Shown: in pieces, positions 51,805-58,297 of the stretch | Layout: each line of letters starts with the position of its first letter | Numbering within the stretch: the first letter of the stretch is position 1 | NCBI GenBank assembly: GCA_012842395.1 | Contig: DUSX01000009.1 | Location: 62,001 to 126,000, forward strand | Length of the DNA stretch: 64,000 nt | Source: Bacillota bacterium | Lineage (GTDB): Bacteria > Bacillota > SHA-98 > UBA4971 | Direction: 5' to 3' | Translations under genes and position numbers: made by a program | Notes under the pieces: generated by a model | Seen by the model: only the letters and a program-made list of their open reading frames with translations | Databases searched by the model: none | Told to the model about the DNA's origin: nothing

Positions 51805-52848
51805 CTATCCGGCCTGGCCCGCCTTCTGGCTGCATCCATCCTTGAAGAGCGCTTCCGCCACCCGCATGATCATCGGCACGCCGCGCACCTCGGTCTCGAA
51901 GAGCGGCACTACCGCGCGGACGTCCGGGAACATCTCGTATATCTGCTTCATATAGCTTTGTTGCATCTCCACACGGTTCAGCACGAACTGCGAGGTGCCC
52001 TCGTCCAAGTCCTCCGCCTTTATCACGCCGTTCACTATGACCCCGCCCACCGGGATGCCGAAGTCGTTGAACCAACCGATGAACCTCTTGATGACCGCGA
52101 TGGGCAGCGCCTCCGGCAGCGTCACGAAGAAGAACGCCGTCTTGTCGTAGTCGCAGAGCAGCTCGCGGGCGTGTCCGATGCGGTCCCTGAACGAGAGGAG
52201 GTAATCGAGGAGCGGGTCTTTCTCCTCCTTCCTCCGGAAGGACAGCGCCTTGCGCAGGGCCGTAGCCTCCTCACGACTCTTGAGCATCTTGTTGACCCAA
52301 AGCGAGTACACCTGCGACATGCCGAGGAGGCGCCTGGCGTTGGCCGTGGGCGCGGTGTCGAAGACGTACACCTCATACTTGTCTTCGAACATGATGTTGA
52401 TCATGTTCTCGAACATGGCCGACTCCTCGAAAGCCGGGTTCATTGTGGCGGTCTGGACGAAGTCGTCGGCCTTCGTCGGGATGTCGGCGAACTTGAGGAA
52501 CATCCTGATCTTGTCGCTTATCTCGCGCTTCGACTTCTCGATAGTGTCCTTTGTGTCTATCTCGTACGCCTCAAGCCCCGGCGCGCCCTCCACCGGCTTC
52601 GGGCTCCCGAAGACGTCCTGCCCGAGGAGGCTGCTCAACGAGTGAACGGGGTTCGTGGACGCGAGGAGCGTCCGGCGGCCCTGCTTTGCGAACCAGCACG
52701 CCGCGGCGCCGGCCATCACGGTCTTCCCGACGCCGCCCTTGCCGCCGAAGAACACGTATTTGAGATGAGGCTTCGCCGCGAGGAACTCCGACATCGAGCC
52801 GGACATGGCCGGCTGCGCTGGGCTGACTGCCTGTGCCACTTTCACCAC
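51805..52848 (-). CDS. ArsA/Get3-like ATPase, subunit with altered switch I
   Basis: A 347-residue SIMIBI-class ATPase. The signature-lysine P-loop is FFGGKGGVGKT (residues 35-43). Switch I reads STNPVHSLSSLL, with Asn66 where ArsA/Get3 proteins have the catalytic Asp of DPAHS. Switch II is intact: FDTAPTANARRLL. ESAMFENMINIMFEDKYEVYVFD aligns with its neighbour. No CxxC zinc motif or membrane helix is seen. The GTG at 52848 overlaps the end of the preceding paralogous gene; an ATG at 52794 is another possible start. It is the last gene of a four-gene operon. Confidence 0.8.
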   Translation of the reverse strand: MVKVAQAVSPAQPAMSGSMSEFLAAKPHLKYVFFGGKGGVGKTVMAGAAACWFAKQGRRTLLASTNPVHSLSSLLGQDVFGSPKPVEGAPGLEAYEIDTKDTIEKSKREISDKIRMFLKFADIPTKADDFVQTATMNPAFEESAMFENMINIMFEDKYEVYVFDTAPTANARRLLGMSQVYSLWVNKMLKSREEATALRKALSFRRKEEKDPLLDYLLSFRDRIGHARELLCDYDKTAFFFVTLPEALPIAVIKRFIGWFNDFGIPVGGVIVNGVIKAEDLDEGTSQFVLNRVEMQQSYMKQIYEMFPDVRAVVPLFETEVRGVPMIMRVAEALFKDGCSQKAGQAG

Positions 52849-53837
52849 CCCCCGAACATCGCGTGGGCCATCTTTTCGATCATCGGGATGCCCCTCACGT
52901 CGCTCTCGAGCTCCGGAACGCGCCCGAGCACCTTTTCGCCGAACGATCTCTCGATCTCCTCGAGGAACCCCTTCTGCATGGTGATCCTGTTGCGCAGGTA
53001 TGTGGGGATATTCTGGCCGAGCAGTTCCTGGGGGACTACCCGGTTCACGATGTACCCGCGTATCGGCACTGAGAACTTCGCAAACATATCGGCGGCCTTC
53101 TTCGTATCCAGGATGATCATTTCCTCCGGGGTGAGCACGAAGAAAAACGCGGTCTTCCGCGAGTCTGTGAGTATACCCGACGAGGCGTTGATGCGCCCCT
53201 TGATATACTGCAGCTCGTTCAGGATCTGATCCTCCTGAAGCTCTTTCTCACGCCTCACCGTCGCCATCACGCGGTCGTACTCGCGCATCTGCTCGCGCAG
53301 GCGGGTGATCTTGCTGATCCACTGGTCGTACACCGACGCCATACTGAGGTAGTAAAGCGCGTGGCCGAGCGGCACGAGGTCGTAAATGTAGTAGTCATAC
53401 CCGCCTTTCACCACGATGTTGACGACCTCGTCGAATATGGCGCTTTCCTCCATGGCTGGCTCGGCAGACGCCGCCTGCATGTAGTTCTCGATTTCCTCAG
53501 GGATCTCTTCGAACCCGTACATGTCACGGATCTTCTGGCGGATCTCGTCCTGATACTCCTTGATGCGGCGGTCGGCATCGATCTCGCAGGCGTAGAGGTT
53601 GGGCAGTATCTCCACCTCGCCCTGCCCGAAGATGTTCCTCTCGAAGATGTCCGACAGGGACGCCTGTGGATCTACGGAGAACACCAGAACCTTGTGCCCT
53701 TTCTTGGCTAGGTAATAGGCGGTGGCAGCGGAGAAGGTGGTCTTTCCCAGGCCGCCCTTGCCGCCGTACATGATGTATCTAACGTCCGGATAATCTTCGA
53801 AGAATTTCGCCAGTGACACGGAGTCGTTCACCTCCAA
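52842..53837 (-). CDS. ArsA/Get3-like ATPase, subunit with altered switch II
   Basis: A 331-residue paralogue of the following gene. The P-loop is YGGKGGLGKTT (25-34), switch I keeps the catalytic Asp in FSVDPQASLSDIF (Asp56), but switch II reads YDLVPLGHALYYL instead of DTAPTGHTLR. A shared EPAMEESAIFDEVVNIVVKG segment supports common ancestry. Long charged helices (about 90-120 and 175-215) may form the client or partner surface. No anion-binding cysteines are apparent, so arsenite export is unlikely. It lies 51 bases after the small-protein genes. Confidence 0.8.
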   Translation of the reverse strand: MEVNDSVSLAKFFEDYPDVRYIMYGGKGGLGKTTFSAATAYYLAKKGHKVLVFSVDPQASLSDIFERNIFGQGEVEILPNLYACEIDADRRIKEYQDEIRQKIRDMYGFEEIPEEIENYMQAASAEPAMEESAIFDEVVNIVVKGGYDYYIYDLVPLGHALYYLSMASVYDQWISKITRLREQMREYDRVMATVRREKELQEDQILNELQYIKGRINASSGILTDSRKTAFFFVLTPEEMIILDTKKAADMFAKFSVPIRGYIVNRVVPQELLGQNIPTYLRNRITMQKGFLEEIERSFGEKVLGRVPELESDVRGIPMIEKMAHAMFGGW

Positions 53838-53888
53838 CTTCCAGCGGGCCCTCCAGCGGGCTTCCGCGAACCTGGGCGTCCCAGGGTT

Positions 53889-54206
53889 TCAGAATATGGC
53901 ATCCATCAGGTCCTTCTCCCTGAGCATGCGCCGCTTCCACGTGGATATCTGCGGGACTACGTAAGGCAAGAGCCGCAGCGAGTAGTAGGGCGGCAGGATG
54001 GGGACTCCGAGCATGTCGCCCATGGTGATCAGGATGAAGAGATGCTCCATGCTTGAACGGGTCTTCAGGGCGAATCTCGTCATGTCATGGGCCGCCATTC
54101 CGTAGATGAACTCTTTGGCGGCTTGGAAGAGCCCCCCATGCCTGCGGGGCGTCGTATCCTTGTTTGATTCCGTCGCGGGACCCTGTGGGATCTCAGGCGA
54201 GTTCAT
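53889..54206 (-). CDS. Small protein with YYSLRLLPY motif (paralogue 2)
   Basis: A 105-residue protein of no family I recognise. After a polar N-terminus, LFQAAKEFIYGMAAHDMTR is followed by a hydrophobic segment (HLFILITMGDMLGVPILPP), the motif PYYSLRLLPYVVPQISTWKR and the end LREKDLMDAIF. The second half aligns with the preceding gene product over its whole length. ATG 54206 follows ggaggtg; it overlaps the preceding gene by 14 bases. Operon context implies joint action with the two ArsA-like ATPases. Confidence 0.7.
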   Translation of the reverse strand: MNSPEIPQGPATESNKDTTPRRHGGLFQAAKEFIYGMAAHDMTRFALKTRSSMEHLFILITMGDMLGVPILPPYYSLRLLPYVVPQISTWKRRMLREKDLMDAIF

Positions 54207-54462
54207 GCGCAAACACCTCCGTTAGATCCTTTTCCTTGAGCACGCTGCGCTTCCAGCCGGGCATCCTGGCCGCGAGATATGGCAGAAGGCGCAGCGAATA
54301 GTACGACTGCGGAATCGGCACGCCGAGGGCGCATCCGAAGAGCGCACACATGAAGGCCTGCTCGCATGCGGCACGCCTTCGCCTCGCCGTCTCGGCTATC
54401 TCGAATCCAGTGAGACCGTAGAGAAACTCACGCGCCACACGAAGCGCCCTTTCAAACACCAT
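54193..54462 (-). CDS. Small protein with YYSLRLLPY motif (paralogue 1)
   Basis: An 89-residue protein, first gene of the ArsA-like operon. ALRVAREFLYGLTGFEIAE, a hydrophobic segment AFMCALFGCALGVPIPQ, then SYYSLRLLPYLAARMPGWKR and LKEKDLTEVF. It is clearly paralogous to the next gene product but lacks its polar N-terminal extension. ATG 54462 follows ggggagacgg. Family unknown. The hydrophobic stretch plus an amphipathic, basic segment could be a membrane-associating hairpin or a client-binding surface. Confidence 0.7.
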   Translation of the reverse strand: MVFERALRVAREFLYGLTGFEIAETARRRRAACEQAFMCALFGCALGVPIPQSYYSLRLLPYLAARMPGWKRSVLKEKDLTEVFAHELA

Positions 54463-54927
54463 TCGTCCGTCTCCCCAGTATGGGTGCCGCACGGACCCAC
54501 CGCCCGGCGCCCAACGCTCGGCGCCGGGCGCATGTACCCGTGTTGGCGTCCACAATGCGGCGTCCACCCGATGTCCATCCATGCCGTGTCATCGGACGCG
54601 GAGCCGCCCCGGCCGGGGGTGCGCACGGAACGCCGCATCCCGCGCCCGGACGACGCCACGGCGCGCCACGGCGTGCGTCTGCCGGGACGCGTCTACGTGC
54701 GAATCGGAGGCGAATCGCATGTGATTCACACGCGACACAACGATTTGCGTGTAAGCACGCGCGGGCTTCGCCTCTCGCCCATCCGCGTGATGGCAGAAGC
54801 CGCGGGGCGCGGGCCGACTGAGCCCGAGGGAAGGGAGGGCCCGCGCCCCGCCTGGGGAAGGGAAGGCCCGCGCGTGAGATTCGCCGCCGACCGCTTCTTA
54901 CAACTCTCTGCATTCTCTCGGAGGTCT
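54463..54927 (-). other. Intergenic region upstream of the ArsA-like operon
   Basis: No gene seen. It must contain the operon promoter, but no convincing -35/-10 pair stands out. GC-rich inverted repeats (gcgcccaacgctcggcgccgggcgc region near 54507) and two similar segments gaagggagggcccgcgc / gaagggaaggcccgcgc (about 54830-54873) are present. Confidence 0.3.
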
Positions 54928-56637
54928 CTATGCCTTGGCCGTCGGTGCAGCCGCGGGCGCTTTGCCAAGCTTACCGGCTCTAGCCTTACCGAACATCCTC
55001 AGGCCATCGTACGCCAGCACGAGCGCGGCGATGATCAAGAACACGGCTATCGCAGCGGATATGATGTTGCCGCCGATCGCCACACCCACGCTCTGCCCGG
55101 CGGGCGGACTCGCGGTCCCCGCCGACAGCTTTGAGGCGGTGATGATAAGGTTCCTCGTGGTGAGCACGAGCGCGGCGATGGTCGTCACGAGCATGAACAG
55201 CATCGGGTAGTACGTGAACTGCCAAGCCTTGCCCTCCTTCGCCAGCCATATGGAGGCGAGCATGAGGGCGAGCGCGGCCATGAGCTGGTTAGCACCGCCG
55301 AACAGGGTCCAGATGTAGCTCCACGTGCCCGTCATCACCAGTATGTAGGTGAGCAGCACGGCTACGAAGGCCCCCACGTAGGTGTTGCGCAGAAGGGGCA
55401 CACCCTCGCCCGCTATCTCCGCCGTGGCTATCCTCATGAACCTCACGGCGAGCTGCATGATGGTGATAGCGAGGACCACAAGCATCGCGCCGGCGAAGGC
55501 CTTGCCGAACTCCGCCCCGATCCCGAGCTTGTTGAGGAGCGCGCCGAGGCCGGCCGCGAAGATGCCCGCGGGGCCGAGCGCCTTCAGGTTCGCCCCGTAC
55601 TCGTCGAACGTCGCGAAGGAAGCGGCGCCGATTATGAGAGCGATGAGCCCGAGGAGCATCTCGAGGAACATGGAGCCGCCCGTGACGTAGCGCGTGTCGG
55701 TCTCGTTCTCAAGCTGACGCGCCGTGCCGCTGGACGACACGAGGCTATGCCAACCCGAGATCGCGCCGCACGCGATGGTGACGAAGAGGATCGGCCAGAG
55801 CGGGCCCACGCTGATGGAGAAGGTCGTGAACACCGGCACGCTGAAGTTCGGGTGACCCACCAGTATGCCGAGAACCGCGCCCAGCATGCCGAGGGCGACG
55901 AGGTAGAATGAGATGTAGTTGATGGGTTGAGTGTAGCTCCAGATGGGCAGCACCGCTCCTATGAAGCTGAACAGCAGGCCGAACACGACCCAGGCTCCGT
56001 ACGACCCCTTGATCGGGATCACGGTGCCAAGCCAGATAGCAAATATGGAAAGAACGACCATGAGGATGGTCACGGCGAGAATGTCCATCTTTTTCTTGTA
56101 AATGAGGTAGCCGGATAGTAAGCCGACCGCCATTAGCGCCAAGATGGCCAGCGGCACGCTGGGGGTTCCCTGGAGCATGCTGGCGACGATGCTGCCGAAG
56201 GCCGACACTATGAGCAGTAGATAAAAGTACATGAAGCTCAGGAGTATGACGCGACCTCTCGGGGAGATCAATTTGTAGCTCAGGGCGCCGAAGGTCTCGC
56301 CGTCGTTGCGGAGACCGATGATAGCGCTGGAATAGTCGTGGATCCACCCTATGAAGAATGTTCCCAGAAGGATCCATAGGAGCCCCGGAAGCCAGCCCCA
56401 CTGCAGCGAGATGATCGGACCCAGCACTGGGCCGAGTGCTGCGATGGACTTGAACTGATACCCGAAGAGCACGTGCTTGCTCGTGGGGATGAAGTCCACT
56501 CCGTCCATGTACATTTTGGCCGGGGTGGCCTTCTTGGGATCTACTTGGATGACCCTCTCATCAAAATACCGCGCGTACCAGTAATACCCGATTCCGGCCA
56601 CTATGAACCCGATAACCAGGGCAACAACTGAGTTCAT
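54928..56637 (-). CDS. cstA: Carbon starvation protein A (CstA family transporter)
   Basis: A 569-residue membrane protein with about 16 helices. VDFIPTSKHVLFGYQFKSIAALGPVLGPIISLQWGWLPGLLWIL is the CstA core (peptide or pyruvate transport), and IHDYSSAIIGLRNDGETFG and SGWHSLVSSSGTARQL follow. Escherichia CstA and BtsT import pyruvate; Firmicutes members are thought to do the same or take up peptides. ATG 56637 follows ggagggagaagg. The C-terminal 20 residues are Ala/Lys-rich. It stands alone. Confidence 0.92.
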   Translation of the reverse strand: MNSVVALVIGFIVAGIGYYWYARYFDERVIQVDPKKATPAKMYMDGVDFIPTSKHVLFGYQFKSIAALGPVLGPIISLQWGWLPGLLWILLGTFFIGWIHDYSSAIIGLRNDGETFGALSYKLISPRGRVILLSFMYFYLLLIVSAFGSIVASMLQGTPSVPLAILALMAVGLLSGYLIYKKKMDILAVTILMVVLSIFAIWLGTVIPIKGSYGAWVVFGLLFSFIGAVLPIWSYTQPINYISFYLVALGMLGAVLGILVGHPNFSVPVFTTFSISVGPLWPILFVTIACGAISGWHSLVSSSGTARQLENETDTRYVTGGSMFLEMLLGLIALIIGAASFATFDEYGANLKALGPAGIFAAGLGALLNKLGIGAEFGKAFAGAMLVVLAITIMQLAVRFMRIATAEIAGEGVPLLRNTYVGAFVAVLLTYILVMTGTWSYIWTLFGGANQLMAALALMLASIWLAKEGKAWQFTYYPMLFMLVTTIAALVLTTRNLIITASKLSAGTASPPAGQSVGVAIGGNIISAAIAVFLIIAALVLAYDGLRMFGKARAGKLGKAPAAAPTAKA

Positions 56638-57154
56638 CCTTCTCCCTCCTTGCCTCTCCGATTCGCATCCCTGGTTCCTCTGCCAAGCAGACCGAGGAGC
56701 CTACCGCAGTTATGACGCACGAAAGTGGAACCTGAAGCGGAACGGATCACATGCAAGCGGAAAGAAGCAAGCATCTCAGCGCGGTGTCGTGCCACCACCT
56801 CCTTGTCGTGGACCGTCTTCGCCCAGGCCCTTTGCGCAACCGTGCGGTGCGTGAACATGCCGCCGGGTTGTGCCGATTCTGACAATCCGAAGATTCTCCA
56901 GAGCATCGTGTTTTCCTGCTTGTGTCATTCCTTCAGATTATCATGGTGTTGCCCTCGCGCACCCGCCGCAGGCACGCGCCGGCCGTCGCTCGGGCGGTCT
57001 CGAAAGAGCGACGCAGGCTGGCCCAACCGACCCCAGGCTCGGACCGCAAGGGGGACCGTAAAGGCCCCTTCCTCATATATGCCGCTCGCTCTCATATATC
57101 TTTGGTACGACATCTATGAGGGATCCGCCCGAGATAGTCAGGGGTGTTTTCTGG
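56638..57154. other. Divergent intergenic region, cstA / L,D-transpeptidase
   Basis: No gene with recognisable product. Both flanking genes need promoters here, but none matches consensus well. A minus-strand frame (56634-56906) containing HRTVAQRAWAKTVHDKEVV has no good start and resembles nothing I know. Confidence 0.3.
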
Positions 57155-58297
57155 ATGGGCAGGAGACGAATGGCGCGTGGGGTGGCGCGTGGGGCGCGCG
57201 TGCTCGTGCTGGCCTTTCTCGTGGTGACGGTCGTGGCGGCGGTCGTCGCAGCGGCGGCAGCGGTTGCCGCGGTCGCGCGGCGCGTCGTTCTCTCCGCGGC
57301 GCCGGGCCCGATGCCTTCCCCGTCCGCATCGCAGCCGACACCCATTGCAGAAACCTCGCGTCGCGATCCTGCCAGTCCTGCAAGCCCTGCAAGCCGTGCG
57401 AGTCATGTAAGCCAAGAGTCAGCGAGCCGCCCACGGTCGTACAGGGTGGTCGTCCCCAAGTGTGGCGAGACGAACCGCCGCCTGTATCTTACGAAACCTC
57501 GTCTCAAGGGCAATGACGTATTGGAGCTCCAGGAGCGCCTGCGAGCGCTCGGCTTTTTCAGTGGCAAGCCCGACGGCGTCTTCGACCTGTCCACCGATGC
57601 CGCGGTCCGAGCGTTCCAGCGGGCCGTCGACCTCGAGCCTGACGGCGTCGTCACCCCCGACACGTGGCTCAAGATGGCCACGGGCCGTGCGCAAACGCTT
57701 CCCGCCCTCACGGAGGCCGAGATGCCCAGCGGCGAACGGAGGATAGTGGTTGACGTCACCAAACTGACGCTGACTCTCTATGCAGGTGACAAAGTCGTAA
57801 AGCAGTACCCCATCGCTATCGGGAAATGGCATACACCGACCCCGATCGGCGAGTTCGCCATAATCGAGAAGGATTACGCGCCCGGCGGAGCTTTCGGGTC
57901 GCGTTGGATGGGACTCAATGTCCCGTGGGGCGGATACGGCATTCACGGCACGAACAGGCCGTGGTCCATAGGCACCGCGGCGAGCGCGGGGTGTATCAGG
58001 ATGTTCAACGAGGACGTGGAGGAGCTCTTCGAGCTCGTCCCCATCAAAACGAGGGTCTTCATTGTGGGTTACGAGCCCGAAGGGGATATTACGCGCGAGC
58101 TTGGTCCCGGGGCCACTGGACAGGACGTCCAGGTGCTCCAGTACTACCTAAGACGCGAGGCGTTCGACGCAGGCCCTCTCGACGGCAGGTTCGGCGAGCG
58201 TGTCGAGGCGGCGGTGAGGGAGATGCAGAAGTTCTACGGCGTTCCCGTGACCGGCCGCGTGGGGACGAACGAGCTCTATCTGTTGGGCTTGAGGTGA
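57155..58297 (+). CDS. L,D-transpeptidase (YkuD) with two peptidoglycan-binding domains
   Basis: A 380-residue envelope protein. A basic start and one long Val/Ala-rich helix (residues 10-45) anchor it; a Ser/Pro/Ala linker follows. PG_binding_1 domain (about 112-170, LKGNDVLELQERLRALGFF), YkuD domain (about 190-310) with IHGTNRPWSIG and catalytic Cys280 in SAGCIRM, then a second PG-binding segment (about 325-380). It cross-links peptidoglycan 3-3, perhaps in the spore cortex or coat. ATG 57155 follows aggggtg; ATG 57116 is alternative. The linker contains a 9-base repeat. Confidence 0.88.
   Translation: MGRRRMARGVARGARVLVLAFLVVTVVAAVVAAAAAVAAVARRVVLSAAPGPMPSPSASQPTPIAETSRRDPASPASPASRASHVSQESASRPRSYRVVVPKCGETNRRLYLTKPRLKGNDVLELQERLRALGFFSGKPDGVFDLSTDAAVRAFQRAVDLEPDGVVTPDTWLKMATGRAQTLPALTEAEMPSGERRIVVDVTKLTLTLYAGDKVVKQYPIAIGKWHTPTPIGEFAIIEKDYAPGGAFGSRWMGLNVPWGGYGIHGTNRPWSIGTAASAGCIRMFNEDVEELFELVPIKTRVFIVGYEPEGDITRELGPGATGQDVQVLQYYLRREAFDAGPLDGRFGERVEAAVREMQKFYGVPVTGRVGTNELYLLGLR
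57368..57412 (+). repeat. 9-base tandem repeat in the L,D-transpeptidase linker
   Basis: Five imperfect copies of cctgcaagc (57368-57412) encode SPASPASRASHVS-type sequence in the extracytoplasmic linker. Copy number may vary between strains. Confidence 0.75.

Follow-up and report, generated by a model that had tools for sequence, protein, structure and literature searches.

A CstA transporter operon with two small partner proteins and a pair of ArsA/Get3-like ATPases that differ in their switch motifs

What is served by an operon in which two related small proteins precede two related ArsA/Get3-like ATPases? This question is raised by a locus of a Bacillota bacterium, analysed here within a stretch of 64,000 nucleotides (contig DUSX01000009.1, referred to as the window). 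An initial annotation reported four minus-strand genes with overlaps and a 51-base gap, arranged as two duplicated pairs, and took them for an undescribed operon lacking ars genes and arsenite-binding cysteines. An ORF check of the window confirmed the four minus-strand reading frames at 51805-54462 (Table 1). Both pairs are true paralogues, since the ATPases A1 and A2 share 36% identity over 324 aa (E 6e-65) and the small proteins SA and SB 43% over 75 aa (E 1e-20). The absence of arsenite-related features was also borne out: no Cys triad is present, and the neighbours of the operon are a C11 peptidase and an L,D-transpeptidase, not ars genes. What had been overlooked is the membrane-protein gene cstA, which lies outside the four-gene interval and adjoins SA upstream on the minus strand, 465 bases before it. 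Pyruvate and peptide transporters of the CstA family are widespread, and to our knowledge the small partner proteins of CstA are unexplained even in Escherichia coli.

Table 1. Coordinates of the CstA operon in the window, from head gene to last gene
Feature	Position	Strand	Description
cstA	54928..56637	-	CstA-family membrane transporter, 569 aa, operon head gene; PF02554 E 5.9e-122
Spacer cstA/SA	54463..54927		465 bases, GC-rich, single copy in genome
Small protein A (SA)	54193..54462	-	89 aa, divergent CstX/CC-star-like paralogue, C-terminus ...FAHELA without Cys-Cys
Small protein B (SB)	53889..54212	-	105-107 aa; start ATG 54206 or TTG 54212
ATPase 1 (A1)	52842..53837	-	331 aa, ArsA/Get3-like; PF02374 E 1.1e-69
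ATPase 2 (A2)	51805..52848	-	347 aa, ArsA/Get3-like; PF02374 E 1.7e-63

The SA and SB genes overlap, SB is separated from A1 by 51 bases, and A2 overlaps A1 by 7 bases. Two starts are possible for A1, TTG 53837 and GTG 53819, of which the GTG has the better-placed GGAGG. The spacer between cstA and SA spans 465 bases here versus about 35 bases in the close relative L008. It may have been inserted, or may act as a control region of its own. Nothing promoter-, terminator- or Rfam-like was matched in the spacer, and the same three scans of the whole operon gave no match or none above chance. Of the PF02374 matches in the genome of the window, only A1 and A2 are strong; five others are weak P-loop matches. 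An ACR3/SBF-like gene occurs on another contig and is positionally unrelated to the operon. Two cysteine peptidase genes, encoding a caspase-domain protein (PF00656; 48632-49627, plus strand) and a clostripain-family lipoprotein (PF03415; 50017-51726, plus strand), point convergently at the operon. On its other side, an L,D-transpeptidase with two peptidoglycan-binding domains is encoded at 57116-58297 on the plus strand, opposite to the operon.

The term undescribed cannot be kept, as Castillo and Saier described cstA-cstX-arsA operons, tandem ArsA pairs among them, in 2010 (PMC2963123). That study listed 26 associations of cstA with arsA, introduced the name CstX for the small protein and placed tandem ArsA in cluster 15, in Symbiobacterium Sth1/Sth2 and in Pyrobaculum Par1/Par2. 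From co-evolution, the authors proposed that ArsA energises CstA via CstX, and they pointed out that single-domain ArsAs may carry N in place of the conserved D (PMC2963123). The published operons and the present one have in common CstA, a small partner (about 90 aa), tandem single-domain ArsAs (about 330 aa) and the absence of ars genes. SA (89 aa) and SB (105-107 aa) resemble CstX in length and have homologues in the Symbiobacterium locus L009. Co-evolution of CstA and its partner is likewise found here, in that the partner type follows the CstA clade. Nevertheless, the earlier study treated the ArsAs as possible homodimers, did not tie the D/N exchange to one member of a pair and reported duplicated CstX in two archaea only. 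A literature search for later work on CstX, with subscription journals and preprints mostly outside its scope, retrieved only Castillo and Saier 2010. The operon type is therefore already known, and the present operon, with its asymmetric ATPase pair and its second small protein, is a variant of it, whose key feature, the Asp/Asn asymmetry, is not spelled out in the literature found.

How far this variant is a fixed unit was judged from its relatives. SB was used to scan one genome per species, giving 329 relatives; 80 loci were fetched, and 54 of these had enough flanking DNA for synteny to be judged. All 54 eligible loci carry CstA, SB, A1 and A2 on one strand in this fixed order, the tandem ArsA pair included. 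Such kept order far exceeds chance, and the same-order co-occurrence that the initial annotation had asked for is thus found. The related loci belong to Thermodesulfobacteriota and other former Deltaproteobacteria, Bacillota, Chloroflexota, Actinomycetota, Spirochaetota and others; the Symbiobacterium locus L009 encodes proteins 70-80% identical to those of the window. Over 20 loci of several phyla, mean pairwise identity is 0.78 for SB, 0.71 for A1, 0.69 for A2, 0.52 for CstA and 0.42 for SA. Of the 80 loci, 23 encode a second small protein between CstA and SB and 5 encode it convergently downstream; in 52 it was not seen within the fetched stretch. Whole-genome searches usually gave two or three small-protein copies per genome, sometimes on another contig. 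The small proteins almost always adjoin ATPases, and neither refuting pattern named in the initial annotation, small proteins mostly without ATPases or single ATPases with an established client, was found as worded. The exceptions are stray second copies away from CstA and the ATPases in Deltaproteobacteria and Chloroflexota (L199-L203, L257, L260), and no neighbour gene is shared among the four Deltaproteobacteria-like loci inspected. The module is patchy in its spread: small-protein matches, some of them from single-ATPase systems, occur in 14 of 199 Bacillota, 14 of 99 Deltaproteobacteria-like and 7 of 81 Chloroflexota genomes sampled. CstA itself is commoner, with a CstA-family match in 97 of the 199 Bacillota genomes, including all 14 with the small protein. 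A plasmid search with SB gave no match.

The transporter was compared with forty extra CstA-family loci without the module, a broad rather than exhaustive set drawn from matches listed for one phylum. In two trees, the second a fast tree with long branches, the CstA proteins of dual modules group in one clade, which contains no CstA lacking the module, and CstA accompanied by YbdD forms another clade. Four partner labels placed on the CstA tree need 4 changes versus 33-36 when shuffled. Two sister species in the genus of the window (G003 and G005) have CstA from a different clade and no module. CstA is very probably the functional partner of the module; where the small proteins had earlier been proposed as adaptors or clients, the client or partner is most probably this protein, encoded just outside the four-gene interval. 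A heteromeric ATPase serving some other client, with the link to cstA a case of operon hitch-hiking, is very unlikely. It would accommodate the stray second copies without conserved neighbours, and also one Bacillota group (L189, L190, L191, L192) in which a small protein ending WCC* adjoins a single canonical ArsA with no cstA nearby, an arrangement that also counts against the reading as a CstA module. However, the genomes of this exceptional group have CstA-family matches elsewhere, and hitch-hiking is opposed by the synteny of all 54 loci and by the module-specific CstA clade across several phyla.

The CstA protein is predicted to be a secondary transporter of the LeuT/APC fold. Its AF2 model (pLDDT 85, pTM 0.86) gave a best fold match with Z 24.9 and rmsd 3.6 over 380 aligned residues, and many LeuT/APC/Nramp chains scored above Z 21. 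A PDB sequence search with CstA gave no match.

The two ATPases differ in their switch motifs. A1 and A2 both match TIGR00345 (GET3_arsA_TRC40) above cut-off, and in the ATPase tree each is monophyletic and the two are sister clades (96*). This topology implies that the duplication and the Asp-to-Asn change each happened once, and no reversal occurs among the sampled sequences; by this evidence the pair arose by one ancient duplication. Among 76 A1 sequences, switch I reads SVDPQASL with the Asp kept in all, and switch II is altered to DLVPLGHAL in 75, one more differing only in the preceding residue. Switch I of A2 reads STNPVHSL with Asn in 70/70 sequences, and its switch II reads DTAPTANAR. 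The Asn aligns with the Asp of STDPAHSL in archaeal Get3-like structures, which is the position of D57 in Get3. Even the most divergent dual genome keeps the asymmetry (SLNPVHSL/STDPQASL), and the canonical Asp is retained in ATPases that occur singly next to CstA or a CC-star protein. In Get3, the switch I Asp aligns the attacking water (PMC10248533), and in the yeast protein hydrolysis cannot proceed without D57, the D57N variant being locked in its ATP-bound form (PMC12506534). A different switch altered in each copy is what would be expected of an obligate heterodimer with one working site, and A1 and A2 probably work as an asymmetric heterodimer. The loss of the catalytic Asp is not proof that A2 has lost hydrolysis. 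The change in A2 nevertheless suggests a lopsided two-part motor or switch acting on the transporter. Haloarchaeal two-domain ArsA (NF041417) was considered as a natural A2-A1 fusion and set aside, as its copies on plasmids carry the annotation arsenical pump ATPase and were not tied to CstA; no CstA was found near two further haloarchaeal plasmid ArsAs.

Several features separate the pair from well-known members of its family. A1 and A2 share with Get3/TRC40 the ATPase fold and the deviant P-loop, and their nearest solved relatives are the archaeal Get3-like chains 3ug6 and 3zq6. Unlike Get3/TRC40, one of the two ATPases is missing the catalytic Asp, CXXC is absent from all 146 A1 and A2 sequences, and the segment aligned to the TRC40 insert is hydrophilic, with a mean hydropathy of -1.3 in A1 and A2 versus +0.24 in one archaeal Get3 (a crude measure on a single aligned segment). 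No Cys column is conserved in A1 and none is invariant in A2. The ArsA-ArsB pump resembles the module in its ArsA-family ATPases, its two non-equivalent nucleotide sites and the secondary transporter alongside, whereas the module has no Cys triad, has CstA as the transporter, encodes the two halves separately and is not accompanied by ars genes. The module is thus neither an arsenite pump nor a standard Get3.

An ATP-driven targeting or assembly device had been suggested for the operon. In this case the A1-A2 heterodimer would shield a hydrophobic segment of SA and SB, or of CstA, and deliver it to the membrane or to CstA, acting as a dedicated Get3-like chaperone with no role in transport. 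The Get3 fold of both ATPases agrees with such a role, as does the fact that SB alone folds without confidence: its AF2 model, left out of the fold search, consists of two helices with pLDDT 69 and pTM 0.28. A single stretch of moderate hydrophobicity occurs in SB and in SA (maximum 19-residue mean 1.49 and 1.53, respectively), which is below the usual transmembrane threshold, so that a membrane segment in SB is possible, not clear. A chaperone would also be compatible with a proton-driven CstA that needs no ATP. Nevertheless, neither ATPase has Get3's CXXC zinc motif or its hydrophobic insert, and one dead site would be unusual in a symmetric delivery cycle. We consider a pure chaperone possible but unlikely; of the earlier suggestion, the hetero-oligomer remains likely in view of the ancient ATPase pair with complementary motif changes, and the targeting role is weakened.

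Comparison with E. coli bears on what the ATPases might do for CstA. E. coli CstA requires YbdD for uptake (PMC5847655), and CstA, a proton-driven pyruvate transporter, and BtsT run on the proton gradient with no ArsA (PMC7730263). ATP is accordingly not needed for transport as such, and it is likelier that the ATPases gate, boost or assemble the transporter than that they are its sole source of power. We tentatively read cstA-SA-SB-A1-A2 as a CstA transport module with ATP-gated or energised transport, a reading that, taken as a whole, has somewhat less than an even chance of being right. CstA would be the LeuT-fold secondary transporter for a small carbon compound such as pyruvate, and SA and SB would bind it as obligatory small subunits, in a role analogous to that of YbdD for E. 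coli CstA. A1 and A2 would form an obligate heterodimer docked via SA and SB, in which A2 binds ATP and hydrolyses it poorly or not at all, as a fixed or regulatory half, and A1 carries the working site. The ATP cycle would then open and close the dimer and thereby gate or energise transport by CstA, much as ArsA acts on ArsB. The nearest precedent is that ArsA acts on ArsB, which is itself able to run on the proton gradient.

That the output lies in gating or energising transport, rather than in assembly or sensing, we hold to be plausible, a little short of probable. As a nutritional or energy sensor, the heterodimer would bind ATP or ADP and switch CstA via SA and SB according to the energy state of the cell, with hydrolysis uncoupled from each transport step. 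One ATP-trapping half and one cycling half are what a sensor would need; nucleotide-regulated LeuT-fold transporters exist, and one of them, KimA, which is regulated by c-di-AMP, occurs among the fold matches of CstA; moreover, CstA is a carbon-starvation protein in E. coli. By sequence a sensor is hard to tell from an energising device, and we regard it as quite unlikely. Returning to ATP-gated or energised transport, its most specific form has a LeuT-fold secondary transporter whose driving or gating by ATP would be mediated by a Get3-class heterodimer, with one of the two ATPase subunits as a natural equivalent of the D57N trap and two paralogous small proteins as adaptors. All of this together is doubtful; if true, the arrangement of transporter and motor would be distinct from ABC transporters, ECF transporters and ArsAB. 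The module naturally joins CstA to two small partners and two ATPases that are inherited together with it, and its catalytic asymmetry is built in and conserved. It makes the 15-year-old proposal that ArsA energises CstA directly testable by point mutation, and it raises the question of how a transporter family that elsewhere runs on the proton gradient came to carry an ATPase.

The small proteins provide further links to known systems. SB exceeds the other operon proteins in conservation and has a near-invariant C-terminal core, which suggests that it may contact several binding partners at once. The small-protein tree has too few columns to decide if SA and SB split once. A PDB sequence search with SB gave only a chance-level TatC match (E 1). 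Against the NCBIfam cory-CC-star model NF041419, SA and SB gave E 3e-8 and 3e-9 (33.5 and 36.7 bits, below the 80-bit cut-off), and by this comparison they are distant relatives of that family. Their C-termini, ...HELA and ...DAIF, have no Cys-Cys, and small proteins of several single-ATPase systems end RCC* or WCC*. The E. coli proteins YbdD and YjiX also end RCC*, and the ending common to them and single-ATPase relatives is suggestive. SA and SB gave no Pfam match, PF04328 (YbdD/YjiX) included, and this family was found in 0/199 Bacillota genomes. Homology of SA and SB to YbdD/YjiX was rejected on a profile-profile probability of 0.3% (E 0.24), a comparison based on only 8 YbdD sequences, so that a very remote relation is possible.

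In gene order, E. coli CstA-YbdD and BtsT-YjiX-YjiA resemble the module, as a small-protein gene directly follows that of the CstA-family transporter. BtsT-YjiX-YjiA also includes a P-loop NTPase, but YjiA is of a different P-loop family, E. coli CstA falls in a different clade from module CstA, and YbdD and YjiX have no detectable sequence homology to SA and SB. The cory-CC-star systems beside CstA and one ArsA, e.g., on a Cytobacillus plasmid (L099), share homology to SA and SB and the same operon logic, yet differ in their Cys-Cys end and single canonical ATPase. The Cytobacillus operon also encodes, between cstA and the CC-star gene, a hypothetical protein of 95 aa that does not resemble SA or SB (L099, 3347-3634).
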